From Periplaneta americana (Eukaryota; Arthropoda; Insecta; Blattodea; Blattidae), in contig NC_091131.1 in assembly GCF_040183065.1 (NCBI RefSeq), forward strand, positions 13,414,300 through 13,478,299: a DNA stretch of 64,000 bases. Direction: 5' to 3'. The notes beneath the pieces are model-generated. The model worked only from the letters and a program-made list of their open reading frames with translations, searched no databases and was not told the origin of the DNA. This document shows positions 3,477 through 60,575 of the stretch, in pieces. Within the stretch, counting starts at the first letter, position 1; the number at the start of each line of letters is the position of its first letter. Position numbers and translations under genes: made by a program.

Positions 3477-6400
3477 TATTAATAATAATAATGTGAAATA
3501 CTATTATTGAAACTTATCTAAGTTACCAGTTAATCTGATTACATTAGAAATGTAAACATAAATTACTTAGGACAATCATTTATGAAGTAAAAATACAATT
3601 ATTTGGATATTTAAATACAATCACTGTTTAACATATTAAGATAAAATCAATTCATTAAACTACTCTGAAAAAATTCAAATTATTAAATATTATTATTGTT
3701 CCTGCAATAACTCCTATGTGCAAAATATAAAATTTTTCAGTAGGAAGAAAAAACACATTCATTGATCCTATGGCAGCCGTACATCTAGGAGACCGTGAAT
3801 TCTTACATTTTCGAAACAAAGCAATATAATTACATATAGGTAAAGGTAAAGGTATCCCCGTAACATGCCATGAAGGCACATGGGGGGGCATGGAGTTAGA
3901 GCCCCATGCTTTCCATGACCTCGGCACTAGAATGAGGTGGTGGTCGGCACCACGCTCTGACCGCCTTTTACCCCCGGGAAAGACCCGGTACTCAATTTTA
4001 TAGGAGGCTGAGTGAACCTCGGGGCCGTTCTGAAAGTTTGGCAACGAGAAAAAATCCTGTCACCGCCAGGGATCGAACCCCGGACCTTCCAGTCCGTAGC
4101 CATCTGCTCTGGAGAGTTTATTATTTGCTGTATCACTATTTAAGTTATTTAACAGAGCAAAAATCTGAAAATCGACAAATAAGTCACATAGGTAATTATT
4201 GCAGGAACAACGACGATATTCCTTACGAATATTACATTTAAGAGCGAATGTAATTTACTGTGTCTGTTCAAGTAATCATGCATTTTAATTTTGAAAAAAA
4301 AGATCTACATTTCTCTAGGATTCATTTGATGTAGACCCTATGATTTGTTGCAAAAAATAATATTTGAAGCCTCAAAGATAGTTTTAAATTACCGTATAGG
4401 TGTGAAACTTGTGTATTTAAATATCATGCTCTCTCTCAGGCTTTTTTTCAATCCTGAAATAATTTTAGAATAGTTTTTTTTTTCATGATTATCCTAATTC
4501 TTGGTTTTGTGTTTACAAAATGGACACGTCCATCTCTGTTTGTTTAAAAAACGGAAGAAAGTCAATCTTTGTTTTAAAAGTGGACGATGCAGTATTTCTT
4601 AATTTTTCCGTAAACTTATTTTTTCAAACTAAATTGCTTGGACCAATCAACTTGCGTGAATGTTTCACACACATTATTAAATAATGTCTGAATTCTGTGA
4701 ACTAAGACTGTTTGATGCTGGGTAACTTTCGGTGCTGGACCCCGGACTCTTTTCACCGGCATTATCACCTTCATATCATTCAGACGCTAAATAACCGAAG
4801 ATGTTGATAAAGCGTCGTAAAATAACCTACTAAAAAAAAAGACTGTTTGAATATTTTAATTATTTCATAGAAATTAGTACCAATAATCGCTGCAAAATAT
4901 GAAGAAAATTACATTAATTTTTCAAATTTCAAAAAAAAAAAAAAAAAAATCGCATGTAATATCCAAATCGATATATAAAAAAAATGATTCTAATTTCCAA
5001 AATTAAATTATGTCTTTATTTCATGTCAAAAAATTTCATTCCCATCACTTTACTAGTTTCTGAGAAAAATAGGCGTTTATATCTCATTGTTTTCAGTTTC
5101 TTTCTGCAATTTTTATTTTACAAAATATTTTATTAACATTTTTATACGTTTACTAAAATGTTGAAATGTACAGGGATTGTTCATCAGAGTTTTTTTATCT
5201 CTCTTAAAAATGTCAAGTAGATTCCTTTGTACAGAAAGAAATGTGCGCTACTGTATTTTGTAGTGAATTTACACTTCATGGTTACGGTACCTTAAAACTT
5301 GCTGAATTTTTTTCTCTTAAAGGGTTAGGTACAGCTTACAGCAGTGAAATTTTGGAAATATTCAACTTTTTTTCCTCCATTACTGTATCTTGTATAATAA
5401 TGAAAATTAGTATGTGTAAAACACTGTCCTTCCGCAATATGAAAAAAAAAATATATTTTTACGGTTAAAAAAATACTTCTTTTTTTTTTTTTAAATTCAG
5501 TTCACTGTGCAGTGATGAAGCATTTCCCACATAACTCAAAAACTATCTAACATCATATGATGAAACTTTTTGTGTGTATTTATGCATGTCATGTCTACAA
5601 TACGTTGCAAGATCACTACTCTACCTTTGATAGATGTCTGATAAAATATAAATTTATTTTAAAAATGGTCAAATATCAGTATTTTCTTTTAACAGAAAAT
5701 AAAAAATAATAATGTATTAAGGAATGTAGTTGAAAGAGCATGATATTGTAAACATGAGTTTCAGCAATAAAATAAAAGAGAGAAAAAATGAAAAAGTTAA
5801 CAAGTTTATGAGTTATGAGGGAAACGCTTCATCACTGCTCAGTGAACTGCCAACATTTTGAATTTTGAAAAAAATATATATAAATATTTTTTTTTTTAAA
5901 TCGCATATATATTTTCATGCTCGACCATGCCGAAATCTAGTAATTATACACCTGGTAGCAGTCCTTTAATGCATGTCATTGAAGTACACCTATTCATTAA
6001 AGTTCAGGTTTTCGATTATTCTCGGATATCCAATCGAAAGACAACGAGGGAAACGTCACGGAGGCTGGAAATCCAATACTGTAGCAGAAGGTTATGTTCT
6101 GTTACTATAATAATTAGCGTTAATTGTAAATAATATTCAAATAAATTCAATTTGTCATCTCGTTTTTCAATTCTAAATCAATTTCCAGGTTATATCAAAA
6201 TTAGTTCATGTTATTCTCTAGATTACATCAAGGTCAATGACATTATCGTTCCTCGGAAAAAATCAATAGTTTCGCGTCTGCGCACATCTCACAATTTACG
6301 AGCTATGCACAAGGTCACTTCCGATCTTCAGTCAGATACGAATAAAATGAATACGTCTGAATAATTTCAAGTTATAAATATGGTCGAGCATAAAAAGTCG

Positions 6401-9400
6401 CATGAAACTTGCCTATAATGATAATAATTAAGACGCTGGTATGAAATTATGAAACTCGCTTGCGCTCGTCTCATAAACAAACATACTCGCGTCTTAATTA
6501 CTATCATTATAGGCTCGTTGCATAATGTACTATTTCATATAGCAAAAGGACAGTGTTTTACACATACCAATTTTCATTATTGTACAAGCTACAGTAATAG
6601 AGAAAAAAAAAAGTTCAATATTTCGAAAAATTTTACTGCTGTAAGCTATACCTAACCCCATAAGTAAACAAAAATGCAGATTTCTGGCTAGTTAGACAAA
6701 GTCTGTAGGAAATTGTTACCCATACTCGCCAGATATAGCTATAAATCGCTGACTTTGCAACTTTGTTGGTACTAAATATCTAGTATCATTCCTTATTTTA
6801 TTAATATGTCGCAGGCATCGTTGTATCTGTGTCTGATTTGATTACATTTCTTCCAGCATCTATTATTGACATTGATAAACTTTTTCTTCTTGTGACAGGA
6901 GCGACTCGAGATCCCAAGATTTTCTCTTTCAGGATTCTATTCCTTTCGTTTTTGATGCTGTCTTTATTCGTGACCGTGTCCTACTCCGCCATCATTGTAT
7001 CCTTGCTGCAGACCACAAGCTCAGCTATTCAGACATTTAAGGATCTCCTGGACAGTCCTTTCAAAATGAGCATGAAGGACTTCGTCGTCAACAGAAATTA
7101 TATAAATGTACGTGCTGATCATATTATTCTACATTTCCTTACACTAGATCGTAAAATTAGATCAGTAATTCTGCTAATATGAATCCCGCTAAATTTACTG
7201 ACTCAGTGAGTTAAGCTCTGTAAGCAGTCACTACGGTCGTCATTGTCAGTGTCACCATGCGGCAGGAAACTGAAACTTTCGAAACATATCGTGAACAAAA
7301 CTACTTCAATTTCAAGGAAATGTCAAGTATTCCTATCATTATTTTTGCATTTGTCTTTTTTATATTTGTGTCTGCAATTTTACTACTATTTATTATTTCC
7401 CCCTCCTCTCTGCATTTGTTTCTTGTATAATATGTCTATTTGTGAATAATTTCAAGGGAAAAATTGTTCCGGGGCCGGGTATCGATCCCGGGACCTCTGG
7501 TTGAACGTACCAGAGGTCAAGGGATCGATTCCCGGCCCCGGAACAATTTTTCCCTTGAAATTATTCAAATGTGCTTTACAGGAAGCTTTACCTGATAGAT
7601 TAGATTTGCATGTCTATTTGTATTCTGGTGGTGTGGTAGAGAAGGCCTGATGACCTTAACTCCGCCAGATTAAATAAATAAATTAATGAATGAATGAACG
7701 AACGAGTAAGCAAGCATAAAATAAAATTTATTTATTTATTTATTTATTCATTCATTCATTCATTCATTCATTCATTCATTCATTCATTCATTCATTCATT
7801 CATTCATTCATTCATTCATTCATTCATTCATTCATTCAACCTGGTAGATATAAGCCAGACGTTTGAGATGGGCAGGGCATGTAGCACATATGGGCGAAAC
7901 CAGAAATGCATATAGAGTGTTAGTTGGGAGACCGGAGGGGAAAAGACCTTTGGAGAGGCCGAGACATAGATGGGAAGATAATATTAAAATGGATTTGAGG
8001 GAGGTGGGATATGATGGTAAAGACTGGATTAATCTTGCTCAGGATAGGGACCAATGGCGGGCTTATGTGAGGGCGGCAATGAACCTCCGGGTTCCTTAAA
8101 AGCCAGTAAGTAAGAAGTAAGGTAGATATAAGGCCATCAGGCCTTCTCTTCCCCTCTACCAGTGGATTACAACCACAATATTAAGAATACAATTACAATT
8201 ATAATTAGAATTAATATTAAATTTGCAAATACAATACAAATGAAAGTACTAAAAGATTAACTGATTAATAAAAAGCTAGACAGTTTATTTTAAAAGTTAC
8301 GAAGAGACAAACACTCTGTTTTTTATTAATTAAGTAAAAATTAAACCTACTCTACGCAGTAAGAAAATGCTTAATAATTTTACTTTTGAACGCTACTAAA
8401 TTCCAATACCCTGTATAATCTAATATCTTTTTTTGCCCCGAACTCTTCTCCCGTTCACAATTTCTTCCAGTGCATCCTTCAGAAGACAATTTCTTCTCAA
8501 CCAATTATTTATAAACTAGCCGTACCCGTGCGCTCCGCTGCACCCGTTAGAAATAAATATAAAGTAATTACATAATTAAAATAGGACATTCGATCCAGGG
8601 AACATTCGTGTTTGATAGAAGGATAAATCGTTTAATATGTTACTTAATTTAAATTTTATTACAAAATTAAAATGCGATCATTTTGATCCAGAGACACTCA
8701 TTTGGTGCAATGACAATTCCTTTAACATGTTTCTTAATTGTTATTACCAATTAATTTTGGAAAAGCGAAAATTAACAGAAAAATTTTGGCTACAGATTTA
8801 TTATTATGTTTATATTATATTATATTATGAAAAAGTGTGTTGATAACGGATGTACTCGAATTAGAAAGTTTTTAATTTGTTGTGGGAGCTCTTGAATCTC
8901 AGGAGGAACAACTTTTACAACAGCGCAACATAATCTGCTTGGCTCATTACCCAATTTTTTTGCATTTCATTTATTGCATATGTATTTTATGTATTTTAAC
9001 ACGATTGAATTGAGCATAGTTAAAATTTGAATTATAAAATAATGGATTGCTAAGCTAACGTACTATTACTGCATACTAAATCAATACACTCTCGTTGTTC
9101 GTTGATTCTCTGAGATAAAAATGAATATGTTCATAAACATTATTATAAGAAATACAGGAAATAAATATACAGAATAACCTATCAAGTTTTCTGTGCATAA
9201 GAAGCTATTTTAATCTTACCTGTCCTCAATTCACTCATACGTTACTGTAATAACATTATAGCATTATGTCCATTCAGAGAAACTACATTTTCCAATGATG
9301 AAATAATAATAATTATACAAATCGGTTAATTTAGCTTCCGATATTGCTTCATACAAACACAGAAACATTCCCTGTAGGCTATCTTTCATAGCTTTCAATT

Positions 9401-24849: not shown

Positions 24850-25012
24850 ATGTTGTATCTGGAACGGTCATTGTTGTTGATGTTCATTTTCCTTCTCGAA
24901 GTTCAGTTATTTCAAGCAAAGATTATCACGCCCGACAGACTGGCGCTGATGGGTTCATTTTTGGACGACAACCACATTTCATTTGCAGTCGTCGTGACTT
25001 GTAGCAGATCAG
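24850..25012 (+). CDS. Gene B exon 1: signal peptide
   Basis: ATG at 24850, donor gtaatt at 25013. The product starts [20 protein letters not shown], a hydrophobic signal sequence, and ends [10 protein letters not shown], the short beta-strand and cysteine typical of IR75 N-termini. It ends in phase 1. Confidence 0.85.
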
Positions 25013-28000
25013 GTAATTTTGAATATATATAATTTGAACTGGTAATGGAAATTACGGGAAAACGGCTGAACGGATTTTAATGAATGACCCCTCATTTTGA
25101 AGCTTAGAACCCGAAGTTTTTCAGAAAAATAGTAACTTTCAGTGAAGCGTTAGTTTTCCTACAGAATTTTCATATTTTCCAAAAACCATCTTTCGTCAGT
25201 TTTGAGAACTAATTGCATCATTTCAGAATAAAACAAAACACACTAGCCTACAATAAACAATAGACTATTACACGAAGGCCATGACCTGCAGGATTGCTGA
25301 CATATTTAGAGCTCAAATTCAATTGGTTATTAAAAACTTCAAGGCTTACTAAAAATAATTTACAGGCTGATTGCTGGTGTGTAATTTTATGAGTACAGCT
25401 GTGTATTGGATATTAAAATCTACAAAACTTGAGGTGGTTTGATGACATTAGTACCATTAGAAATTAAATGTTATTATAATTAATGCCATGATGCGACTAT
25501 TTTTCATTAATTATACCTATTAATGCTATATTGATGATATGAAAGTGAAACTTTTGGGGTTATATAAGTAGATGTAGAGAATATATGAAATTAGATCTTC
25601 ATTTCTATAATTTACTGAATGGCGGCTATGTAGTATATACTAGGGCTGGATAAAAAGTAATGGCAACAGTTCGATATTTCTGACATGGCTTTATTCACAG
25701 GGGTACAACATTTACGTACCTTCTATATAGTCGCCCCCCTTATTTATTACCTTTTGCCAAATGTTTGGAAATCGTCGTACACTATCAGCGCGTCCATCTT
25801 TGTTGATATTCCGTATTGTCCGCCCTATTGCACGGATAAGTTCATCTCTGGTATTGTACCGGGTCCCTCGCAGTGGTTCTTTCACTTTGGTGAAAAGATC
25901 GTAATCGCATGGACTCATATCGGGTGAGTACGGTGGATGTTCCAGAATCTCCCATTGCCAGCGGCGCAAGAGGTCCTTGACAGCAGCAGCGGTGTGACTC
26001 CTTGCATTATCATGAAGAATGATAGGATTCTGTACTACCAAGTGTCGTTGTTTTCTCCTGAGGTCTGGAAGAAGGTGGTGCTACAGGAACCTGCAGTAGT
26101 AGTCCGCGTTTGCCGTCTGCCTTGGAGGTACAGCGTGGTGCAGTATTACCCCATCAATGTCATACGTCACAATGAACATCACTTTCACAGCACTTTGTGT
26201 AGGACGCACTTTCTTCGGGCGAGAAGAACCTGGTTGCTTCCATTCATTTGGTTGGTTCGTATGAGCGAGTCCAGGTTTCGTCCATAGCGACGATTCGTCC
26301 AAGAAAGTCATCTTTCCTTTGGTACCGGTCCAACAAGGCCTGTGCGACTGCATAGCGATGCCATTGTTAAACTTAGGAAATTTCATGGTGTATCCAACGC
26401 CCTGTAATTTTGCGGTAACCCAGAATGTCTTGCAGAATGTGGAGCACAATTTTGTGACATACTCCGATTTCCGCTGCTAACTCACGCGCAGTCCATCGGC
26501 TATCAGCATCCAACAGGGAAGCAAGGAGTTGAACTGTGTTGCAAGGAGATGCACTATCACCTTTACTTTTTAACTTCGCTCTAGAATATGCCATTAGGAA
26601 AGTCCAGGATAACAGAGAGGGTTTGGAATTGAACGGGCTACATCAGCTGCTTGTCTATGCGAATGACGTGAATATGTTAGGAAAAAATACTCAAACGATT
26701 AGTTAAAACACGGGAATTTTACTTGAAGCAAGTAAAGAGATAGGTTTGGAAGTAAATCCCGAAAAGACGAAGTATATTATTATGTCTCGTGACCAGAATA
26801 TTGTACGAAATGGAAATATAAAAATTGCAGATTTATCCTTCGAAGAGGTAGAAAAATTCAAATATCTTGGAGCAACAGTAACAAATATAAATGATACTGG
26901 GAGGAAATTTAACACAGAATAAATATGGGAAATGCCTGTTATTATTCGCTTGAGTGGCTTTTGTCATCTAGTCTGCTGTGAAAGAATCTGAAAATTAGAA
27001 TTTATAAAACAGTTATATTACCTGTTATTCTGCATGGTTATGAAATTTGGACTCTCACTTTGAGAAAGGAATAGAGATTAATGATGTGTGAGAATAAGGT
27101 GCTTAGAAAAGTATTTGGGGCTAAGAGGGATTAAGTTATAGGAGAATGGAGAAAGTTACACAACACAGAACTGCACGCATTGTATTCTTCACCTGACATA
27201 ATTAGGAACATTAAATCCAGACGTTTGAGATGGCCAAGGCATGTAGCACGTATGGGCCAATCCAGAAATGCATATAGAGTGTTAGTTGGGAGGCCGGAGG
27301 GAAAAAAGACCTTTGGAGAGGCCGAGAGGTAGATGGGAGGATAACATTAAAATGGATTTGAGGGAGGTGGGATATGATGGTAGAGACTGGATTAATCTTG
27401 CACAGAGTAGTGACCGAAGGCGGAGTTATGTGTAGGCGGCAATGAACCTGCGGATTTCTTAAAGGCTATAAGTAAGGAAGATGTCATTATCAAACATTTG
27501 AAATAGTCATAATATTTTGTTCAGTTGAGTTTTTCCTTCTATAACTGTTAGGTAGGTACTTGCTATAATAGTATATGTGACTGATTTTATGTTAACCCTG
27601 ACATATTCATGCATTAAATACATTTTCGGTAATAATTGGGAAACAGTTACAATAGCGACGGAATCGTGTAACGTGCACGTATTCAGTAAACTTTATTTTT
27701 GGTCTGTTGTGTCTCAGAGGACGTGCAGATCGCCAAGTTCTTCTCGAACAGAGGCCTTCGAGTGAAGATTCAGCGTGCAGATGAACCGACAGATGTCGCT
27801 TCTTTGTTGTCAGTGGATATGTACAAGCTGGCTGTATTTCTACACTGGCAGTGTGAGGGCAGCTCCGTCGTTTTGAAAAAGGTCAGTGTGATAGGTTAGA
27901 AATTAAAGTTCTTCGATAAATAATGATTGAATATAAGAAATGAGGCCATGAGCATATTTCTTCTGGTTGGTTGGATCCAACCATGCCTTCCAATTAATAA

Positions 28001-52000: not shown

Positions 52001-54664
52001 TCGGGTTGCGCAGCACGAAAAGTAGCGTGCAGCGCGCTACTCTTGGCTTACGTGTGAACACTACACGCAACTTTTGCAGCTGCAGTACAAAAGTTGCGCA
52101 GCAAAAGTAGCTACGTGTGAACGTACGTTAACACAGTTTCAGTACGGATGCTTATTTGGCTGTGTCTGTGAATGAGTTATGATAAATAAAGTGAGGAGTT
52201 CACAGATAACGGAGAAGAGAAATTACGAATCATATGGCATAATTGTTATAATGTTTTCCTCATCCAAAAATAATTATTTTAAAATGAAAGGCTTTCATCA
52301 GCCCATGTCGAGGTATAATAGTGTTGTGACAGTTTAGATCAGATTAGTAAAGTTCTCAAAATATGATATTGCCAGGGCTTATTTCTTAATCAGCACTCTC
52401 ACGGCAAAACGAACTTGACAATGGCGTTGTTTTGGAGTCTGTACTAACATAGCCATCAAAGATTAGACGACTTACGACTTTCATTTCATAAACTGGTAAG
52501 TGATGAGAATATAGTGAGGAATACATATGAGGCTCTTGAGATTGTAAGGAACGAAGAAAGCAACTATTTGCAAGGCGGAAAAATTTTCTGGAAAAATATA
52601 TAATGGCAAATTTTGCATCTCACGTCACTATATTATGCTAATATACTTACATTAATAAACCTTTCAACCTGACATAAATAGAATATCGTCGCTTCTCAGC
52701 TTGTAAACTACACTTTTAATTTCTTTCAGTAGGCCTAACGCTTCCAACTTGTCGATACTTGGTCTCAACGTTTTCCAAATAAACTATATGCAAATTTAAT
52801 TCTAAGCTTAATTTATATCATTTATTAATATTAATGTTAATTTATATTGACATAAAGCAAGGAAATGATTTCAGTGTAAAAACTTCACAATGTCCTACTG
52901 CATGTAATTAATTGGGAATATAATATTTTCTTCAACATTTGTACCAATGGTCCCAGTAAATACGTAATACGTAATAATCCTGGATGAACAATGAAAGAGT
53001 AGGGTCTATTACTTTAAAATAATTAGTACCTACTACGTAAAATGAAATACTTGTTCGTTTTTTTTTTTGTTTCGAAATTAGTACAATATTTTTTTCTTCA
53101 AATACTAGTCTATATAAAAATCATATTAATAAATTATGCTTTAAAAACCACTACTTTGTAAAATACAACTGAGTAAGCCTAAAGTTTCTTGTATTACAGT
53201 TGTCAAGTATAGACACTGATAATAACCGTGTTTTTTTTTATTCTGCTAAGTGTGCTTATTATGTCCAAATGCATATTTAATCGAAACCTAGACGCGCAGC
53301 TAAGAAAGAGTAAGAGCGACGCTCGAATGATGCAGTCTGCACAGACCGGCGATCCGCGCAGAAAATTGCACATTTAGAGTCTGATTTCTGACATGCCTGG
53401 TGTAGCGAATGCTGTCAAACTCGTGCTCCAGAGGCGCGAACGAATACGGAGGGGGTGGTTATAGTATCCTGACTGCTACATTTCCCTTGCATTAACACAA
53501 CGTAAGGTAGGGCCCCCGACCGGACATCGGAATGGGGGACTATTTTACCTCCGAATTGTTTTACTTCTCTTGACATCATACATAAAAATATCGGAGAGTG
53601 ATGTGGCAAAAATATAGCGGTTTTTAAGTAGGCAATTTATTTTAATAATATTATTTATTTATTTTTATTGCTAGTAAGTTTGAAATGAATACAAATTAAT
53701 AAATACAATGAAAGATAAACTAGCCCACTCCTGAATGAGTAAGACTCGTGCTCAGGAGGGAATTCCAATACAAACAAAAACAAAATTAAAGTTGAAAGTG
53801 AATACAGATTAAATAGTGTTTAATATGTTTAAGTCCAAACTTCAAATCCAATACATTTTTTTTATTAATTTGGAGAGGATTCGTGATTGAAATATTATTG
53901 GAATAAAATTTGTTTAATAATCTGGGACCTTGATTGATACTATGATAAAAAGCTGCATTGGTTTTACATTTTGGTTCAGACAAACGCAGAGAATTAATAT
54001 TTTTGGTTCTATATTTGAGCCGTTCAGAGCAAAAGTGGTGTAAGTCAAATTTGGGTAACGAGGTTTAAAGTAAAAAATTCTGTAAAATACAGCGCAAAGT
54101 AGCAATTAATATATCCTTCTTGTTATCCACTGACTACTATAACCCTCATTACCCATTATTGACTTACACCACTTCTGCTCTTAATGGCTCATTTATGTAT
54201 ATACCTTTCAAAGTTATTAAAATTTCTATGAAAATATTTTAATGAAGTAAAATAATACATTTGTTTAATGTTATAATGTTTAATGTTATATAGTTATATC
54301 ACCTACACGTAACCCCCAAACTTTTCGGAAGAACAAATCTGCCGATGGAAATAAAATATATGAATAAATCAGATGAATACAATAATCTACATTTAATAAG
54401 CAAAGTTCGCATCATGATTTCAGGGTGCGATGGTTAAAGGAATCTGGACTGTCTGACCGTGAATACAAGTTCTGGGTGATCCAGTTCCCCAAGTGCCAAG
54501 GTCGCGCTGAGAGCTTCACCAGTGTTCGAATCCAGGACTTCTACCCGGCCTTGCTTGTTCTTGTATATGGCGCTGTTATCTCCGTAGGACTTCTTCTTCT
54601 AGAGAAGATGTACTCACATCTGCGAAATCTGAAGTCTCAACGGCTCGACGACAAGAAATATTAG
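24850..54664 (+). CDS. IR75-clade ionotropic receptor, gene B (complete, nine exons)
   Basis: Join 24850-25012, 27718-27881, 29470-29769, 32203-32315, 35656-35826, 41194-41420, 43506-43714, 48519-48790, 54424-54664. The 1860 nt give 619 residues and a stop, near the usual IR75 length. All introns are GT-AG and all phases join. Residues 1-23 form a signal peptide. Residues about 24-210 are the divergent N-terminal region. S1 follows ([20 protein letters not shown] near 262-281, [20 protein letters not shown]). M1 is about 329-346, pore loop 363-380, M3-type segment 392-416 with [10 protein letters not shown] (407-416), S2 about 417-570 with [12 protein letters not shown], and M4 about 580-600. 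IR75 receptors are chemosensory, often acid- or amine-tuned, partnered by IR8a (family knowledge). The start is the ATG that gives the signal peptide. No premature stop was seen, so it appears functional. Confidence 0.92.
25023..25639 (+). repeat. Third copy of the long-arm repeat
   Basis: Starts ATATATAATTTGAACTGGTA only 11 bp after the exon 1 donor and follows the arm at 13919 for about 615 bp. It ends exactly where the mariner element begins. Confidence 0.75.
25640..26541 (-). pseudogene. mariner transposase, truncated and frameshifted
   Basis: On the minus strand three frames give the helix-turn-helix region ([10 protein letters not shown]), then [15 protein letters not shown], then [10 protein letters not shown] and [18 protein letters not shown] with conserved catalytic aspartates, and the end [17 protein letters not shown]. 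The 3' terminal repeat is GGGCTGGATAAAAAGTAATG at 25643-25662. The element is cut at 26541, where LINE sequence of opposite coding strand begins. Frameshifts lie near 26050-26080 and 26400-26450. Fragments like this make up SETMAR-like predictions in insects. Confidence 0.85.
26542..27480 (+). mobile_element. LINE ([10 protein letters not shown] family), decayed
   Basis: Starts at GGAGATGCACTATCACC (the QGDALSP codons) and runs to the MNLR end, with many stops and frameshifts (for example TAA after NPQTIS-like sequence near 26703). It is fused directly to the mariner remnant on its left. Confidence 0.83.
27481..27717. other. Gene B intron, unassigned
   Basis: Intron end leading to the TTGTGTCTCAG acceptor. 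No feature recognised. Confidence 0.5.
27718..27881 (+). CDS. Gene B exon 2: N-terminal region
   Basis: Acceptor gtctcag at 27717, donor gtcagt at 27882, 164 nt. It encodes [19 protein letters not shown] ... [12 protein letters not shown] and [17 protein letters not shown]. The closest sequence in the window is the relic exon at 58084-58244. Confidence 0.9.
27882..28290. other. Gene B intron, unassigned
   Basis: No clear feature before the TA-flanked element. Confidence 0.5.
28291..29404 (+). mobile_element. TA-flanked nonautonomous element X, copy 1
   Basis: Ends CAGGGACATCATTTTATTTT and complement (GATGTCCCGG), with TA on both sides (28289-28290, 29405-29406). 1114 bp with no transposase. 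Copy 2 is at 58631-59777 in the opposite orientation; a scrambled copy is at 29859-31760. A two-base TA target points to the Tc1/mariner group. It ends 65 bp before exon 3. Confidence 0.78.
29470..29769 (+). CDS. Gene B exon 3: N-terminal region
   Basis: Acceptor ttattccag at 29469, donor gtgagt at 29770, 300 nt, in phase 0 at both ends. It encodes [14 protein letters not shown] ... [15 protein letters not shown] ... [15 protein letters not shown], typical of the IR75 extracellular N-terminal domain. Confidence 0.9.
29985..30300 (-). mobile_element. tRNA-derived SINE, family C
   Basis: On the minus strand the head reads GTGTGGCTTAGTGGATAAAG ... GCTGAAAACCCGGGTTC, with A-box and B-box-like segments. 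A body follows that is shared with 61150-61445. The head resembles a tRNA but continues into SINE sequence. Confidence 0.75.
30348..30603 (-). mobile_element. SINE-A, full length
   Basis: Minus-strand copy ending (head side) at CCACAGGTGTGGAC. The B box is slightly mutated (GATTCGACCCC on the plus strand). Confidence 0.85.
31118..31380 (+). mobile_element. SINE-A, full length
   Basis: Plus-strand copy with an A-rich end. AATAAGTGT flanks it on both sides (near 31111 and 31385), consistent with a target duplication inside element X. Confidence 0.85.
31761..32202. other. Gene B intron, unassigned
   Basis: AT-rich intron ending in the TTTGCTGTTTTCAG acceptor. No feature recognised. Confidence 0.5.
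32203..32315 (+). CDS. Gene B exon 4: start of ligand-binding S1
   Basis: Acceptor ctgttttcag at 32202, donor gtgcag at 32316, 113 nt. It encodes [20 protein letters not shown] ... [10 protein letters not shown]. It ends two bases into an arginine codon completed by exon 5. Confidence 0.88.
32426..32472 (+). repeat. (AT)n microsatellite
   Basis: Uninterrupted TA dinucleotides for about 46 bp, immediately left of the large inverted repeat. Confidence 0.92.
32503..33042. mobile_element. Inverted-repeat unit, possibly a Penelope-like element terminus
   Basis: Left arm 32503-32745 and right arm 32795-33042 are reverse complements with small differences, separated by about 50 bp. Both carry CTGAGGATGACCCATAATAG followed by GGTCGAAAC or GGTCTGAAC. 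This combination recalls the degenerate hammerhead motifs in the terminal repeats of Penelope-like elements. No reverse transcriptase is present. Overlapping frames on both strands are palindrome artefacts. Confidence 0.55.
33043..33599. other. Gene B intron, unassigned
   Basis: Nothing firm. May include the upstream part of the decayed LINE that follows. Confidence 0.4.
33600..35375 (+). mobile_element. Second LINE family: C-terminus, 3' UTR and terminal hairpin
   Basis: The frame at 33624-34076 reads [42 protein letters not shown] and [15 protein letters not shown]. This is the region after the reverse transcriptase in CR1/Jockey-type LINEs. The 3' region ends in the hairpin CTGGTAGAGG ... 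CTCTACCAGG around GGCCTGACGGCCTT, followed by AAAT repeats. This supplies a parent for the AAGGCC..GGCCTT modules elsewhere. The 5' part is missing. Assignment of the whole 1.3-kb 3' region to one element is inferred. Confidence 0.65.
34296..34384 (+). repeat. Three 29-bp tandem copies
   Basis: TTTATCGCGTCCCTAGCATT followed by TGTTTAATT is repeated three times without change inside the LINE 3' region. Confidence 0.9.
35376..35655. other. Gene B intron, unassigned
   Basis: A short ACT-rich run near 35378-35398, then AT-rich sequence to the TGTGTTTTAG acceptor. Confidence 0.5.
35656..35826 (+). CDS. Gene B exon 5: S1 lobe
   Basis: Acceptor gtgttttag at 35655, donor gtaagt at 35827, 171 nt. 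It encodes [20 protein letters not shown] and [20 protein letters not shown], the S1 segment that contributes to the ligand pocket. It ends GA, completed by exon 6 to give glutamate. Confidence 0.92.
35848..36053 (-). mobile_element. LINE 3' fragment with 13-bp target duplication
   Basis: The last about 200 bp of the [14 protein letters not shown] family, tail first. AATAAAGTTAAAT stands at 35835-35847 and 36054-36066. The insertion is 21 bp downstream of the exon 5 splice donor and left the donor intact. Confidence 0.88.
36067..36524. other. Gene B intron, unassigned
   Basis: No feature recognised. Confidence 0.5.
36525..37885 (+). repeat. TTTA-type and GAA microsatellites with two copies of a LINE C-terminal tail
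   Basis: Long TTTATTTAATT-type tracts (36525-36955, 37215-37340, 37550-37880) alternate with (GAA)n tracts (near 37088-37205 and 37478-37545). Two near-identical blocks at 36942-37087 and 37331-37478 read [20 protein letters not shown] in one frame. This matches the tail following reverse transcriptase in some LINEs. The 219- and 140-residue open frames are microsatellite artefacts. Confidence 0.75.
37886..37940 (+). repeat. Single AAGGCC..GGCCTT module
   Basis: GTTAAGGCCATGAGGCCTTC after a TTTA tract; a solitary relative of the array at 2322-3492. Confidence 0.75.
37941..38739. other. Gene B intron, mostly unassigned
   Basis: Near 38480-38620 an imperfect repeat based on GACCACGA and AAGGAC gives spurious D/H/K-rich frames. 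Nothing else recognised. Confidence 0.5.
38740..38806 (+). repeat. Two hAT-like terminal sequences in tandem
   Basis: GCTCCGGCACTG occurs at the ends of two consecutive blocks starting GGTGGAGCGGAG (near 38764 and 38800). The same 3' end is at 41132-41143. CAGTGCCGGAGC read inward resembles hAT terminal repeats, but no matching 5' end is seen in the window. Confidence 0.45.
39000..39690 (+). pseudogene. hAT-like transposase N-terminus, frameshifted
   Basis: ATG at 39260 gives [18 protein letters not shown] and continues to a stop at 39557. An A-run at 39537-39544 shifts the frame into 39474-39683, which reads [20 protein letters not shown] with CxxC cysteines. The KRQKTLxSFF start followed by a W..KKEAY.WI..C..GC.VC block resembles the KIAA1586-like hAT proteins (family memory only). 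Sequence similar to the rest is missing, presumably displaced by the next element. Confidence 0.45.
39723..41056. mobile_element. Long inverted-repeat element
   Basis: GAACAACTGGATAATTCCCA at 39723 is mirrored at 41037-41056. The arms (about 470 bp each, to about 40200 and from about 40590) are nearly identical reverse complements. The spacer of about 390 bp holds a second inverted pair, CCGTGGGAATTCTCCAGT near 40297 and its complement near 40561. No transposase. It could fold into a very stable hairpin. Confidence 0.8.
41057..41143 (+). repeat. hAT-like 3' terminus
   Basis: Ends AGCTCCGGCACTG at 41143, 50 bp before exon 6. Probably the right end of the element whose transposase remnant lies at 39260-39690. 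Confidence 0.4.
41194..41420 (+). CDS. Gene B exon 6: end of S1, M1, pore loop
   Basis: Acceptor gcatttcag at 41193, donor gtgggt at 41421, 227 nt. It encodes [19 protein letters not shown], membrane segment [16 protein letters not shown] and the pore loop to ICQEG. Confidence 0.94.
41421..41682. other. Gene B intron, unassigned
   Basis: No feature recognised before the AAT tract. Confidence 0.5.
41683..43080. repeat. (AAT)n/module repeat split by a LINE
   Basis: (AAT)n at 41683-41731 and again at 42962-43031 flank the LINE. The right tract continues into TTTATTTTAGCTGGCAGAG and the palindromic module AAGGCCGTAAGGCCTTCTCT. The LINE therefore inserted into one (AAT)n tract of this repeat class. 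Confidence 0.8.
41734..42960 (-). mobile_element. LINE ([10 protein letters not shown] family), longest copy
   Basis: On the minus strand the reverse transcriptase runs from [19 protein letters not shown] through [20 protein letters not shown] and VYADDVNML to [10 protein letters not shown], then a single TAG (42175-42177) in place of the tyrosine of LYGCETWT. The rest, to MNLRVP, is open (41751-42152). The 3' tail is ACTTACTTACAA type. The N-terminal endonuclease region is absent. Of the copies here it is the least damaged. Confidence 0.88.
43081..43505. other. Gene B intron, unassigned
   Basis: Contains an ATT-rich run near 43240-43280. Ends in the CTTATTTTGCCAG acceptor. Confidence 0.5.
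43506..43714 (+). CDS. Gene B exon 7: M3-type segment and start of S2
   Basis: Acceptor ttgccag at 43505, donor gtgagt at 43715, 209 nt. It encodes [20 protein letters not shown] and the gate motif [12 protein letters not shown], then [19 protein letters not shown]. Confidence 0.94.
43715..44204. other. Gene B intron, unassigned
   Basis: No feature recognised. Confidence 0.5.
44205..44590 (+). repeat. Four tandem copies of a 99-bp unit
   Basis: AAATTACACTACATAC starts units near 44205, 44304, 44403 and 44501 (spacing 99, 99, 98). Each has GATTAAGACATAGAAGCCGA and ends TTTGTTTATTAAT. The last three are nearly identical. No coding capacity. Confidence 0.9.
44608..44840. repeat. Inverted repeat at left end of the piggyBac-like element
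   Basis: CAGTACTCGCGTGGATTACA near 44610 is mirrored by TGTAATCCACGCGAGTACTG near 44817. The near-palindrome GGATTAC(C)ATTGTAATCC is in both and again at 46913, inside the right end of the transposon. Confidence 0.7.
44754..46972 (+). pseudogene. piggyBac-type transposon with broken transposase
   Basis: Translated pieces from about 44890 to 46330 give [20 protein letters not shown], then [45 protein letters not shown] and ITLVGT. This order and spacing match PGBD4/piggyBac transposases and include two DDD-type aspartates (in IDEQL and TTDN). Stops lie at 45554 and 46013 and there are several frameshifts. The right end is AACGAAGGG followed by TTAA (46973-46976). The left end is CCCTTTGG at 44754 preceded by GCAA rather than TTAA. 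Not functional. Confidence 0.82.
46977..47176. other. Gene B intron, unassigned
   Basis: Short unassigned stretch between two elements. Confidence 0.4.
47177..47430 (+). mobile_element. SINE-A, reference copy
   Basis: The tRNA-like head has GTGGAGTAACGGTCAGCGCG (A-box type) and GGTTCGAATCCCGGTCGGGG (B box). The body CTGGTTGAGGTTTTTTCCGG, GCTGGGTAACTTTCGGTGCT and ACAGCGTCGTAAAATAACCC follows, ending in an A-run. Four near-complete copies and two 3' halves are in the window. Presumably transcribed by RNA polymerase III and mobilised by a LINE. Confidence 0.9.
47431..47654. other. Gene B intron, unassigned
   Basis: No feature recognised. Confidence 0.4.
47655..48184. mobile_element. Inverted-repeat element with TGACGTCATTGATGC
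   Basis: Ends AGCGTATTCCGAATCTCACC and its complement near 48163-48182. TGACGTCATTGATGC occurs near both ends (47727 and 48136), the latter within the extended right end. About 525 bp, GC-richer than the intron. No transposase; superfamily unknown. Confidence 0.65.
48185..48518. other. Gene B intron, unassigned
   Basis: Leads to the CTTTTTCTGTTTAG acceptor. Nothing else recognised. Confidence 0.5.
48519..48790 (+). CDS. Gene B exon 8: S2 lobe
   Basis: Acceptor ctgtttag at 48518, donor gtaagt at 48791, 272 nt. It encodes [32 protein letters not shown] and [11 protein letters not shown], then RG split across the junction. Confidence 0.94.
48791..50285. other. Gene B intron, no firm feature
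   Basis: 48830-48960 is a GC-richer stretch with CAGTCATGTCAACTGATGCC that could be a hAT-like end, but no partner was found. The remainder is AT-rich. Confidence 0.4.
50286..53399. mobile_element. Possible 3.1-kb hAT-like element
   Basis: CAGGCATGCCAAA at 50286 and its complement-like TTTCTGACATGCCTG ending 53399 suggest terminal inverted repeats. The 8-bp flanks GTCTAGAG and GTGTAGCG agree at six positions. No transposase is readable inside. A GC-rich inverted-repeat element (51293-52132) is nested within. Confidence 0.4.
51293..52132. mobile_element. GC-rich inverted-repeat element with repeated GTAGC/ACGTGTGAAC
   Basis: GTCACACGTCGCTACTTTTG near 51301 is mirrored by GCAAAAGTAGCTACGTGTGA near 52099. 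Between the ends there are many copies of (A)CGTGTGAAC, AAAGTAGC and TTGCAGC in both orientations, concentrated at the two ends. Such subterminal arrays are typical binding sites for hAT-like transposases. No gene. Confidence 0.65.
53400..54016. other. Gene B intron, unassigned
   Basis: No feature recognised. Confidence 0.4.
54017..54190. mobile_element. Short inverted-repeat element
   Basis: TTCAGAGCAAAAGTGGTGTA at 54022-54041 is mirrored with few changes at about 54161-54183. The arms are about 40 bp (..AAGTCAAATTTGGGTAACGA) and the unit about 170 bp. MITE-like; class unknown. Confidence 0.65.
54424..54664 (+). CDS. Gene B exon 9: S2 end, M4, tail
   Basis: Acceptor tgatttcag at 54423; stop codon 54662-54664. 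It encodes [41 protein letters not shown] and the last membrane segment. A lysine/arginine-rich cytoplasmic tail follows that differs from gene A. Confidence 0.94.
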
Positions 54665-55239
54665 TAACACATGCGCCTGTTAGGAAGTTAGGACCCCTAC
54701 ACAGTGAATTCCACCTCGCTTTATATATACACATTTCTATACCAAGCACTCGTGCTCCATATCCAAATTTCTTAGAAGCACAGTGGGAATGTTCGTCTTG
54801 AACATGTTTTATTTGATCTCAAACGACTTGAATGTCTATCGGTAGTGGTTAATGGTTTCCAATACCGAGCATTTATCTAAGCCATTGGCTGTTCACTGGT
54901 ATCTGTTCCTGATTAATTGTTATCACTTTCAATGTTTGCATATCACACGTGTACGAAGACACAGAGAAGGTTGTGACCAGTCAAATATTGAATGATGTTC
55001 TCATTTACCATACATGTTAAGACGCCAAATCTAACGATTATTTCAAAAATATTAAATCCGTCATTTAAACTTTTTCAGTCTTGCAAAACTGACTGTTTCT
55101 TCAAACGGACATGCCTTCCATTTTTAATTCGTAATCAAGAATTGCAGTGTATATATTGTTGAAAGAACATCTGGACTTGTACACAAACTTTCAAATTATT
55201 GCGTTGTTACATTTGAAGTATCGTGTCATAATGTTATTT
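54665..55239. other. Downstream of gene B
   Basis: Presumed 3' UTR and intergenic DNA. No convincing AATAAA in the first 300 bp and no other feature. Confidence 0.45.
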
Positions 55240-55818
55240 ATGCTCGACCATGCCGAAATGTAGTAATTATACATCTGGTAGCAGCCCTTTAATGGCCCTC
55301 ATTAAAGTACACCTATTCATTAAAGTTGAGGTGTTCCACCAATCAGAAAATACCATTGTAGCAATATGAAAGCGCAAGTATCGATTATTCTCGGATATGC
55401 AATCGAAAGACAACTAGTTCTGTTACTATAATAATTAGCGTTAATTGTAAATAATATTAAAATAAATTCAATTTGTCAGCTCGTTTTTCAATGTCTAATT
55501 CAATTTCAAGGTTATATCAGGATTAATTTTTATTTTACTCTCTAGATTATATCAAGGTCAATGTCGACATTTGTTTCTCGGAAAAAAATCAATACTTTCA
55601 CGTCTGCGCGCATCTCACAATTTACGAGGTATTGCACAAGGTCAGTTCCGCTCCTCAGTCAGATAAGAATAACATGAATACTTATGAATAATTTCAAGTT
55701 AGAAATATGGTCGAGCATAAAAAGTCGTATGAAAATTATGAAACTCGCTTGCGCTCGTTTCATAAACATACTCGCGTCCTAATTACTATCATTATAGGCT
55801 CGTTGCATAATGTACTAT
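55240..55818 (+). repeat. Dispersed GGTCGAGCAT repeat, copy 2
   Basis: Starts ATGCTCGACCAT, has ATGGTCGAGCAT at 55707-55718, and ends CTCGTTGCATAATGTACTA. Slightly shorter than copy 1 in the right palindrome. Confidence 0.75.
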
Positions 55819-56243
55819 TAACCAACTATGTCCGAAACTGTGATTTAATCATTTGACTCTTGCAAACCATTACATTGAACTATGAGAAGTGTTCCTCTAA
55901 CCTGAGTCTTAAACGTTAAAAAAAATTGAAAGTAATTGAGGAACACATTCCTGAATTTTGATGAAGATGGTGAACGTTTTATAAGACTGTAGTGCCATAA
56001 TATTGGTCTTTCTGCGCCAGGTTACAATTACATTGACATCAAACGATCCGAAAATACTCCATTATGGAAATCATCAAAAGAAAACTATATATAGTATCCG
56101 TGATAGCCATCGAATTTGTGGTTCTTGTTCCGGACGGGTCAGGTGTACCAAGACTAGTTTGATTCTTCAATCGTACTTGCTGAAAATAGTCAGAACGTTT
56201 TTTTTTTCTTCCATTCTACAATACTGTGAAAAAATGAAAATAG

Positions 56244-56300
<57 letters not shown>

Positions 56301-56829
56301 ATTCAAAACCTCTTGATATAACTATTTAATTGAAGAATATAGACACGCAACTTAAAATAACTTTAAAGAAAGGCACCAAATATAGAGAACTTTAGTGGAT
56401 AAAGTAATGTCTGAAAAAGTCATGGGAAGGAAACTTGTTGCTTAGAATAAAAAAAAAAAGGAATATAATTGCTGTGAAGCAGAAAATGATCACTTTCTAG
56501 AGCTACTTGTAATAACTTGATATAGGAGCTGATTTGTCTATGATGATTTGTCATTGACCGTAAATGTACGACATTTTGCAGTACAGAATATAAAATTCGT
56601 ACCCAGAGCACTCCAGATACAGAATCTCAATATCGGAATTTGTATGTCATTATACTGAAAACATTTATAAATATTACATCGTCTTATGAATACTATGTTG
56701 ATTTGACAATAGCCAACTAGGCTAACAGATCGATATACTGTGTTCAAATTTGACGATAATTTTTACACTTTGAAGGGATCACAAGCGTCGATAATGTGAA
56801 CAGGTTCTTTGACAGTGGCTATGCATTTG
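55819..56829. other. Intergenic, including A48 homopolymer
   Basis: A run of 48 A residues spans 56252-56299. No clear retroelement precedes it. No exon 1 of a third receptor was found here by eye. Confidence 0.5.
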
Positions 56830-58066
56830 ACGATGAACTTGTTTTGAATATGATTGATGACATCGTACGACAAGATATAGTATCTAGTGGTGCAATTTTA
56901 TCCAAGAAGATTGATGATCAACTTGTTTTGAATATGATTGATGACATCGTGTGACAAGATTTTATATGTAGTGTTGCAGTTGAAACCACAAAATTTTATG
57001 ATCAACTTATTTTGAATATGGTTGACGACATCGTACAAGATTTAGTATCTAATGTTGCAGTTGTATCCACAAAGTTTGATGATCAACTTGTTTTGAATAT
57101 GGTTGATGACATCGTACGACAAGATTTAGTATCTAGTGTTGCAGTTGTATCCACAAAGTTTGATGATCAACTTGTTTTGAATATGGTTGATGACATGGTA
57201 CGACAAGATTTAGTATCTAGTGTTGCAGTTGTATCCACAAAATTTGATGATCAACTTGTTTTGAATATGGTTGATGACATCGTACGACAAGATTTAGTAT
57301 CTAGTGTTGCAGTTATATTCATAAAGTTTGATGATCAACTTGTTTTGAATATGGTTGATGACATCGTACGACAAGATTTAGTATCTAGTGTTGCAGTTTT
57401 ATCCACAAAGTTTGATGATCAACTTGTTTTGAATATGGTTGATGACATCGTACGACAAGATTTAGTATCTAGTGTTGCAGTTATATCCATAAAGTTTGAT
57501 GATCAACTTGTTTTGAATATGGTTGATGACATGGTACGACAAGATTTAGTATCTAGTGTTGCAGTTATATCCACAAAGTTTGATGATCAACTTGTTTTGA
57601 ATATGGTTGATGACATCGTACGATAAGATTTAGTATCTAGTGTTGCAGTTGTATCCACAAAGTTTGATGATCAACTTGTTTTGAATACGGTTGATGACAT
57701 CGTACGACAAGATTTAGTATCTAGTGTTGCAGTTGTATCCACAAAGTTTGATGATCAACTTGTTTTGAATACGGTTGATGACATCGTACGACAAGATTTA
57801 GTATCTAGTGTTGCAGTTATATCCACAAAGTTTGATGATCAACTTGTTTTGAATATGGTTGATGACATCGTACGACAAGATTTAGTATCTAGTGTTGCAG
57901 TTATATCCATAAAGTTTGATGATCAACTTGTTTTGAATATGGTTGATGACATCGTACGACAAGATTTAGTATCTAGTGTTGCAGTTATATCCACAAAGTT
58001 TGATCAGCTTGTTTTGAATATGGTTGACGACATCGTGCGACAAGATTTAGTTCTAGTGTTGCAGTT
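56830..58066 (+). repeat. 84-bp tandem array, 15 units, open in frame
   Basis: Units start GATGAACTTGTTTTG or GATCAACTTGTTTTG near 56830, 56914, 56998, 57079 and then every 84 bp to 58003. Translated, the 28-residue unit is about DDQLVLNMVDDIVRQDLVSS followed by VAVISTKF. Two stops (56955, 57624) interrupt an otherwise continuous frame. Length changes of 3 bp occur in units 3 and 15, and the only frame-breaking change is a 1-bp loss in the last unit. The first three units are diverged and the middle ones nearly identical. The array stops 17 bp before the relic IR75 exon. Confidence 0.9.
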
Positions 58067-58083
58067 GTACCCACAAAGTGTAG

Positions 58084-58244
58084 AGGACGCGCAGAAACCG
58101 AAGCTCCTCTGAAGACATGAACCCATACTGGAGATTCTTCACATTGATGAGCTACCAAACGTCCTTTGACTGTTGTCTGCGAGGAACACCATGGCGGTGA
58201 TCATGGGCTGGGAGTGTAACAGCAGCATCGGATTCCTGAAGGAG
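58084..58244 (+). pseudogene. IR75-clade receptor gene C, relic exon 2
   Basis: In the phase of gene B exon 2 this reads EDAQKPKLL, stop, RHEPILEILHIDELPNVL, stop, LLSARNTMAVIMGWECNSSI and GFLKE. It aligns along its whole length with gene B exon 2 with one residue missing. Shared landmarks include ED.Q..K, DE...V, LLS, AV...W.C..S and LK. It keeps the acceptor-like TAG with the AG|GAC start and a donor GTTAGT at 58245. The stops at 58110 and 58167 make it a pseudogene unless they are sequence errors. No exon 1 or exon 3 was found in the window. Confidence 0.75.
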
Positions 58245-58630
58245 GTTAGTTATTTGTTAAGCTATTTACTTAAAAAAGAGGTGGGAAAATTTCAACTTAG
58301 GAAGAAAAGGGGGAAAGGGTGAAATGTTTTGTTATCGCATCTGGGAAAGAAAAGGAAGAGAGCACGGACTCTTTCATTCTATGGACGAATTTTTAGACGT
58401 GTTGAGCAGTTACGTAAGAGATCTGATAAAAAACTATCCAACGTTTGGCAAAAAAGATATAAGCTTGCAAGTTTAGATCAAAACATAGCCCCTTCAGATA
58501 ACTTCCATCTGAGTAATCATACTTCTGGAATAATTTTTTTAAATTACATTTTGGTTCTTAATAAGGCGTTTCTTTGCATTAGTCTTTATTTTTCTTTATT
58601 CTATTTAAATTTAGTACACCAGACCTTCTA
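58245..58630. other. Unassigned
   Basis: After the relic exon donor. The frame at 58329-58688 is not recognised and lies partly in element X. Confidence 0.4.
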
Positions 58631-59777: not shown

Positions 59778-60028
59778 TATATTACATCATGACATCAGAT
59801 TATGTTGTATGATGTGCTTTTGTGTTTTTTTAATAATGTGGTGTAGGTCTACACTTGCAGAAATTTCGTAATGTTGTATGTATAGATAAAAATGACGTGT
59901 CTAAACTGTCGCAAAAAAATCTCGTGATGACGCAAGTGTCTGCCAACTGTTATTGACTTTATATTACGAATTCTGAAATTTTATTTTTCTGAATAGAAGA
60001 TTCATACGTGAAGTGTTTAATAAGGCTT
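59778..60028. other. Unassigned
   Basis: No feature recognised. Confidence 0.4.
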
Positions 60029-60575
60029 ATGGTCGACCATGCCAAAATGTAGTAATTATACACCTGGTAGCAGACCTTTAATGCATGTCATTAAAGTACA
60101 CCTACTCATTAAAGGTCAGGTCTTTCAACCAATGACGATTCAGGTTACAACTGTTCAGCCAATGACAGGTCAGCTTTCTACCGTTATAAAACCGCAAGTA
60201 TCGATTATTCTCGGATATGCAATCGAAAGAGAATTAGAGAAAAGTCACGGAGACTGGAAATCCAATACTGTCGCAGAAGGTTATGTTCTATTACTATAAT
60301 AATTAGCGTTAATTGTAAATAATATTCAAATAAATTGAATTTGTCATCTCGTTTTTCAATGTCTAATTTAATTTCATGTTATCTCTGTAGGTTCTTATGG
60401 CTTAGCAAGGTCAATGTGTACATCTGTTCCTCGGAAAAAGTCAATACTTTCGCGTTTGCGCACATCTCACAACATACGGGACACTGCTAAAAAATTAATA
60501 ATATCAAGTTAGAAATATGGTCGAGCATAAAAAGTCGTATGAAACTCGCCTATAATGGTAATTAAGAAGCTCGTA
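60029..60575 (+). repeat. Dispersed GGTCGAGCAT repeat, copy 3
   Basis: ATGGTCGACCAT at 60029 and ATGGTCGAGCAT at 60517-60528. This copy keeps two CCAAT-type sequences (AACCAATGACG, AGCCAATGACA) followed by TTATAAAACCGC about 40-60 bp later, a promoter-like arrangement. A later AATAAA lies near 60329. Confidence 0.7.

Follow-up and report, generated by a model that had tools for sequence, protein, structure and literature searches.

An 84-bp minisatellite beside a decayed IR75-type receptor exon in Periplaneta americana, probably non-coding DNA grown in a former intron

Introduction

A locus in the genome of Periplaneta americana carries fifteen head-to-tail units of 84 bp directly in front of a stop-containing homologue of exon 2 of the IR75-type ionotropic receptor (IR) genes, and it raises the question of what such an array is. 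It could be a receptor exon that was amplified in its reading frame, a satellite that destroyed a receptor gene, a repeat with a function of its own, or ordinary DNA within a gene that was already dead. A sequence-only reading of the locus had put weight on the unit length, which is a multiple of three, and on the nearly uninterrupted reading frame, and had proposed the first two of these possibilities. Minisatellites (VNTR loci) have units of roughly 10–100 bp, and exon-derived coding minisatellites exist as a class. The titles and abstract openings of the top-ranked papers in literature searches name neither an array like this one nor a minisatellite derived from an IR exon, which does not prove that none has been described.

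The window referred to throughout is a stretch of 64,000 nucleotides (C15:13414300-13478299) within an assembly of 3.23 Gb and 91 contigs. Positions are those of the window unless a contig is named. Several analyses cover 224 kb, which is the window extended by 70 kb upstream and 90 kb downstream.

Results

The Receptor Cluster

Matches to the IR75 N-terminal family (PF24576, IR75A_N) occur on many contigs of the assembly and form a run on contig C15 from approximately 13.29 to 13.98 Mb. In tblastn searches the neighboring genes A, B, D, and E match one another in exon 2, exon 3 and two membrane exons, all of which each gene contains. Their exon 1s, which end in a phase-1 donor, were located by tblastx between the upstream intervals. 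An additional copy of exon 3 lies upstream of gene A. The following exons of gene B are used below for comparison:

24850..25012, plus strand: exon 1 of gene B, used as a yardstick (tblastx against gene A exon 1; reading and donor)
27718..27881, plus strand: exon 2 of gene B, the homologue of the relic exon (tblastn)
54422..54646, plus strand: last exon of gene B (extent of the tblastx match)

Exons 2 and 3 of gene B together match IR75A_N with an E-value of 6.4e-16, and exons 1 and 2 together match from profile position 3 (E 1.5e-6), which supports the exon 1 that was called for this gene. None of the four exon 1s that were tried alone reached the family, so that the lack of a Pfam match above the cut-off for a doubled 84-bp unit is uninformative as to its relation to exon 1.

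Upstream of the array, no receptor exon was found closer than the last exon of gene B, at a distance of 2.2 kb, and the first exon of gene D starts 0.8 kb beyond the window. Between these two exons a single receptor exon was found, the relic exon 2 that is assigned to gene C. The description of gene C as a third receptor holds for the plus strand of the window, where it follows genes A and B, but the contig carries further IR75-type matches to either side. In the German cockroach, 897 IR genes are reported, of which 393 (43.8%) are pseudogenes, together with many further fragments (PMC6175461). Given such a large expansion with pseudogenes, a lone decayed IR exon within a cluster is unsurprising.

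The Relic Exon and Its Borders

58084..58244, plus strand: decayed IR75 exon 2 of gene C (profile, tblastn, nhmmer)
58079..58083, plus strand: tgtag, probable remnant of the 3' end of native intron 1 with the acceptor AG (alignment to gene A)
58245..58250, plus strand: GTTAGT, similar to a splice donor, 3' of the relic exon (compare GTCAGT in genes A and B)

The relic exon is one codon shorter than its relatives and contains two in-frame TGA stops, in agreement with the sequence-only reading. Its DNA identity to gene A exon 2 is 65% (121 of 186 aligned bases, borders included). The match is recovered by nhmmer with an E-value of 1.2e-10, that to gene B exon 2 with 9.6e-7, and four of the nine matches listed lie above the inclusion threshold. 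Against exon 2 of each of the five relatives tested, the relic DNA scored above all 1000 shuffles. At the protein level the profile score of 22.7 bits was equalled by none of 5000 residue shuffles (highest 12.6). A read-through six-frame scan of the 224 kb gave the relic an E-value of 2.1e-4, a rank surpassed only by the exon-2 copies of genes A, B, D, and E and by one partial copy at gene A (the exon-2 sequences of D and E were entered in the profile work with E instead of D as first residue). The alignment is thus better than chance, the point on which the homology had been said to depend. The relic matched 0 families in a comparison with Pfam PF24576, and exon 2 of gene B, although intact, also reached only 12.9 bits (E 0.084) by itself against a cut-off of 27. 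In the whole assembly the relic matched only itself, as DNA or as protein, in a search that reports close copies. Judged by these alignments, the relic is a genuine decayed IR75-type exon 2.

The borders of the relic read TAG/AGGACG and GAG/GTTAGT, compared with CAG/AGGACG and GAG/GTCAGT in gene A. The five bases tgtag are all that separates the last unit of the array (end 58078) from the exon, a gap that had previously been given as 17 bp, and the counterpart of this region in gene A is GTGTCTCAG/AGGACG. Since tgtag resembles a shortened native intron end, the array probably occupies the place of the former intron 1.

Differences between the relic and gene A exon 2 are spread evenly over the three codon positions (22, 22, and 18 over 54 codons). 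The exon 2s of gene A (C15:13406414-13406578) and gene B (window 27718-27881) also differ evenly (6, 6, and 7 over 55 codons), an uncommon pattern if both genes are under constraint, although the numbers are small. The even differences of the relic are those of neutral decay, for which they are therefore weak evidence. A tblastn search of the 6.6 kb between the relic and gene D, with two versions of exon 3, the two membrane exons and the last exon as queries, gave no match below an E-value of 0.24.

Structure of the Array

56826..58078, plus strand: 84-bp minisatellite, units u1 to u15 (TRF, unit cut, identity matrix)
56749..56825, plus strand: possible older, strongly decayed unit u0 of 77 bp (global alignment to the consensus and to u1)

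TRF reports 15.0 copies of 84 bp at 56826-58079 with 93% matches, and a separate cut of the array likewise yields the fifteen units described earlier (thirteen of 84 bp, one of 81 bp, and one of 80 bp), a count that comes from one assembly, in which tandem arrays may be mis-sized. In the identity matrix the inner units u4 to u14 are 94–100% identical to one another, and u1 and u2 share 80–90% identity with the remaining units. The outer units (u1 to u3 and u15) are more decayed than the inner ones, and the gaps of the array sit in u3 and u15. A homogeneous center with decayed edges is the usual look of an array that is turning over in its middle. The gaps number three in total, two of 3 bp and one of 1 bp, so that the remark that most indels measure 3 bp is numerically correct for a sample too small to mean anything.

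To judge from alignment, the array may be preceded by a unit in an even more advanced state of decay. Units u0 and u1 begin with the identical sequence TTTGACGAT, and the global alignment score of u0, the start of which was picked by eye, was equalled by 1 of 2000 shuffles for the consensus and by 3 of 2000 for u1. When the whole left flank (56400-56825) was aligned locally with unit 1, 111 of 500 shuffles scored as well, so that the result does not exceed chance. Approximately 0.5 kb 5' of the array, at 56252-56299, lies a stretch of 48 A that may be the tail of a retroposed sequence.

All eight matches of a whole-assembly DNA search with positions 56900-57070 (mostly units 2 and 3) and all 15 matches of a whole-assembly protein search with the consensus unit lie within the array, and the left flank (56300-56825) matched only itself in the same close-copy search. 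This search skips common words and overlooked the exon 2s of genes A and B that tblastn detects next door, so its silence proves only the absence of close copies. At that sensitivity the array, with its 15.0 head-to-tail units of 84 bp, is a tandem repeat in the range of 10–100 bp per unit at a single locus and not a dispersed satellite. Copies at unrelated loci, which had been named as evidence against a link between array and receptor, were not found among close copies in the 3.23 Gb. A search for a parent of the unit by nhmmer, in the 224 kb with the array masked and in seven further stretches (L040-L046), gave a best E-value of 2.5. The region from 54 to 61 kb has no Rfam match at gathering thresholds.

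The Open Reading Frame

Only one of the six frames of the unit is open. In this frame 13 of the 15 units are stop-free, and the frame is broken by a TGA in u2, a TAA in u10 and a 1-bp deletion in u15. The nearly stop-free 1.2 kb to which attention had been drawn is accordingly one frame of one unit repeated fifteen times, real in itself but not a kilobase of independent sequence. An open circular frame occurred at least once in 1384 of the 2000 dinucleotide shuffles made from the unit, and in 3577 of the 5000 pieces of 84 bp drawn at random from the 224 kb.

A total of 30 distinct changes were identified between units, 6 of them synonymous compared with 6.8 expected without selection (from the codon table at equal rates, a synonymous share of 0.226; the share would be 0.345 if all changes were transitions), and no excess of synonymous change is seen. 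Together with the stops and the frameshift, a pattern this close to expectation gives no sign that selection has maintained the frame since the units arose.

The chance that a length is divisible by three is one in three. Among the 23 non-overlapping tandem arrays of the 224 kb with a period of at least 20 and at least 2.5 copies, the period is divisible by three in 10. These arrays include 99 bp × 27 (C15 13359961-13362637), 51 bp × 63 (C15 13372572-13375777), 43 bp × 22.5, and 260 bp × 46. The last spans 12 kb downstream of the membrane exons of gene E (C15:13551537-13563557, stretches L038-L039) with copies that are 96% alike. The in-frame property of the 84-bp unit carries little weight, and the emphasis placed earlier on a coding register is unsupported by these counts.

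Comparison of the Unit with Receptor Exon 1

Nine exon 1s were available for comparison, those of genes A, B, D, and E, of genes F, G, and H (stretches L045, L041, and L046), one from L040 and one on contig C11 (L042). Stretches L043 and L044, in which no exon 1 was found, are outside this set. In a gapless profile of the nine exon 1s at four block widths the unit scores 9.8–12.6, which is equalled by 4–23 of 2000 shuffles and by 5–24 of 2000 random 28-mers depending on the block width. The score of 12.6 belongs to a block of 22, with 4 and 5 of 2000 controls, respectively (units treated as circular). With an earlier profile of seven exon 1s, 19 and 26 of 5000 controls equalled the unit. The match always falls in one register, with Thr27 of the unit at the position of the conserved Cys, and the consensus unit contains no Cys. 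When real exon 1s were left out in turn, with their own clade excluded, the lowest scores were 21.0–25.9 by width. An hhalign comparison, for which the unit alignment comprised five variants (two of them composites and not exact units), was equalled by 59 of 200 column shuffles. The HMMER exon-1 profile gave the doubled unit −3.1 bits, a score equalled by 1674 of the 3080 shuffles reported (5000 run).

The DNA of the unit is similar to none of the seven exon 1s of genes A, B, D, E, F, G, and H (111 to 675 of 1000 shuffles equal the score; the slices of D and E were one base off at one end). The exon 1 of gene A detects those of B, D, E, and F by nhmmer (E 1.2e-5 or better). The exon 1s of G and H were not found in this way, and 151 of 500 shuffles equalled the alignment of A with G. 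Since exon 1s of distant clades are dissimilar in DNA as well, the DNA test excludes only the sampled kinds. Because DNA comparison recovers the relic as well as sister exon 1s, an exon 1 of gene C that had decayed to the same degree as its exon 2 should be detected. No other exon 1 of gene C was present upstream among the exon-1 profile matches listed. The likeness of the unit to exon 1 at the protein level appears weak and is suggestive at best.

Discussion

There is a strong probability that the array is a non-coding minisatellite grown in the former intron 1 of a tandem IR75 copy that is now dead. Gene C would have been an IR75-type ionotropic receptor copy in tandem between genes B and D that died and lost all recognizable parts except exon 2. 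A non-coding stretch of 84 bp in the former intron 1 would have been duplicated head to tail, up to approximately 5 bp from the acceptor of exon 2, and the array would have spread to 15 units by replication slippage and unequal exchange, with a middle that homogenizes and edges that decay. We infer these processes from the gradient between edges and center, and the order of events is likewise a suggested one. The open frame would be an accident of the unit that every copy inherited; nothing would be encoded, and no function is proposed. Ordinary non-coding DNA in a dead gene is the most likely reading of the locus. With minisatellites the array shares head-to-tail units, a homogeneous center, decayed edges and, at the sensitivity of the search, a single locus; many neighboring arrays are alike and no difference was found. 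As in IR75-type pseudogenes (PF24576), the relic aligns with exon 2 of its neighbors and keeps both splice borders, but gene C differs in that only one exon was found, which is too short and decayed for the Pfam model. Exon-derived coding minisatellites resemble the array in the open frame and the unit length divisible by three, whereas the array has stops and a frameshift and lacks a demonstrated parent exon or frame constraint.

Several observations count against growth in an intron: when read in its open frame on the correct strand, the unit is more exon-1-like than most controls, the array occupies the position expected of exon 1, on the strand of exon 2 and 5' of it, and the exon-1 profile matches listed include no other candidate for this exon of gene C upstream. 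They are what would be seen if the 28-residue unit were the mature part of gene C exon 1, brought next to exon 2 by deletion of intron 1 and then amplified in register, and few controls (4–24 of 2000) match its gapless score. This origin is nevertheless unlikely, given that the unit scores below every left-out exon 1, does no better than shuffles with HMMER and finds no support from hhalign, contains no Cys, and shows no DNA likeness to seven exon 1s by means that recover both the relic and the sister exon 1s; in addition, the last bases before the relic look like native intron. The amplified receptor exon proposed earlier is thus not supported, although a weak gapless likeness is left. It is similarly improbable that the unit is a much diverged mature IR75 exon 1 of an unsampled clade, fused to exon 2 and amplified fifteen-fold in register; if true, a receptor exon would have turned into a minisatellite. 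Still less can be said for a translated 28-residue repeat protein or a functional transcribed satellite, which must be considered very improbable: the 13 stop-free units speak for it, and the neutral change pattern, the two stops, the frameshift (in u15, itself one of the stop-free units), the lack of Pfam and Rfam matches and the frequency of such open frames by chance speak against it.

The array might also have been the cause of death of gene C, if, as it grew, it displaced the branch point and the pyrimidine tract of intron 1, with decay of the gene following. It does reach to within 5 bp of the acceptor and replaces a T-rich tract that genes A and B have kept. However, it does not explain why searches of the interval from the relic to gene D recovered neither exon 3 nor the two membrane exons nor the last exon. 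The relic differs from gene A to a similar extent at all three codon positions, as in neutral decay (although the same is true of A and B), and the nearly identical inner units look younger. A killing array is a distinctly unlikely explanation; the missing later exons and the near-identity of the inner units favor growth in a gene C that was already dead, which seems more likely than that the array helped to kill it.

For a minisatellite grown in the intron of a dead gene, the significance goes little beyond the locus. One open unit repeated fifteen times makes a kilobase of nearly open frame, and repeats easily look coding. The relic documents one more decayed exon in the history of gains and losses of the receptor cluster, and the gradient from the edges to the center of the array could order the events, given sequences from sister species.

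Other Features of the Cluster

In addition to its exon 2, gene A has a second, partial copy of this exon 75 bp before exon 3 (L030:5947-6027 and 6103-6402 for the partial copy and exon 3; C15:13410246-13410701). No GT donor follows it directly (GAGAAG/TTGAGC) and the exon-3 acceptor is present; it is the second loose exon-2 copy in the cluster. Among the 91 matches to PF24576, 22 are weak (E 0.2 to 9), below the cut-off, and share a profile start at 5–7 and an end at 67–81. Mostly frames of approximately 80 residues on many contigs (e.g., C9:123033146-123033340 and C12:45112256-45112456), they look like one dispersed element or a short gene family and not like receptor exons. Copies of one repeated element in the same orientation (55235-55820 and 60027-60547) bracket the array and the relic, and tblastx finds the element near genes A and E as well. 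Between exons 1 and 2 of gene B, two adjoining reading frames on the minus strand (25712-26476) resemble what we take to be a broken mariner-type transposase.
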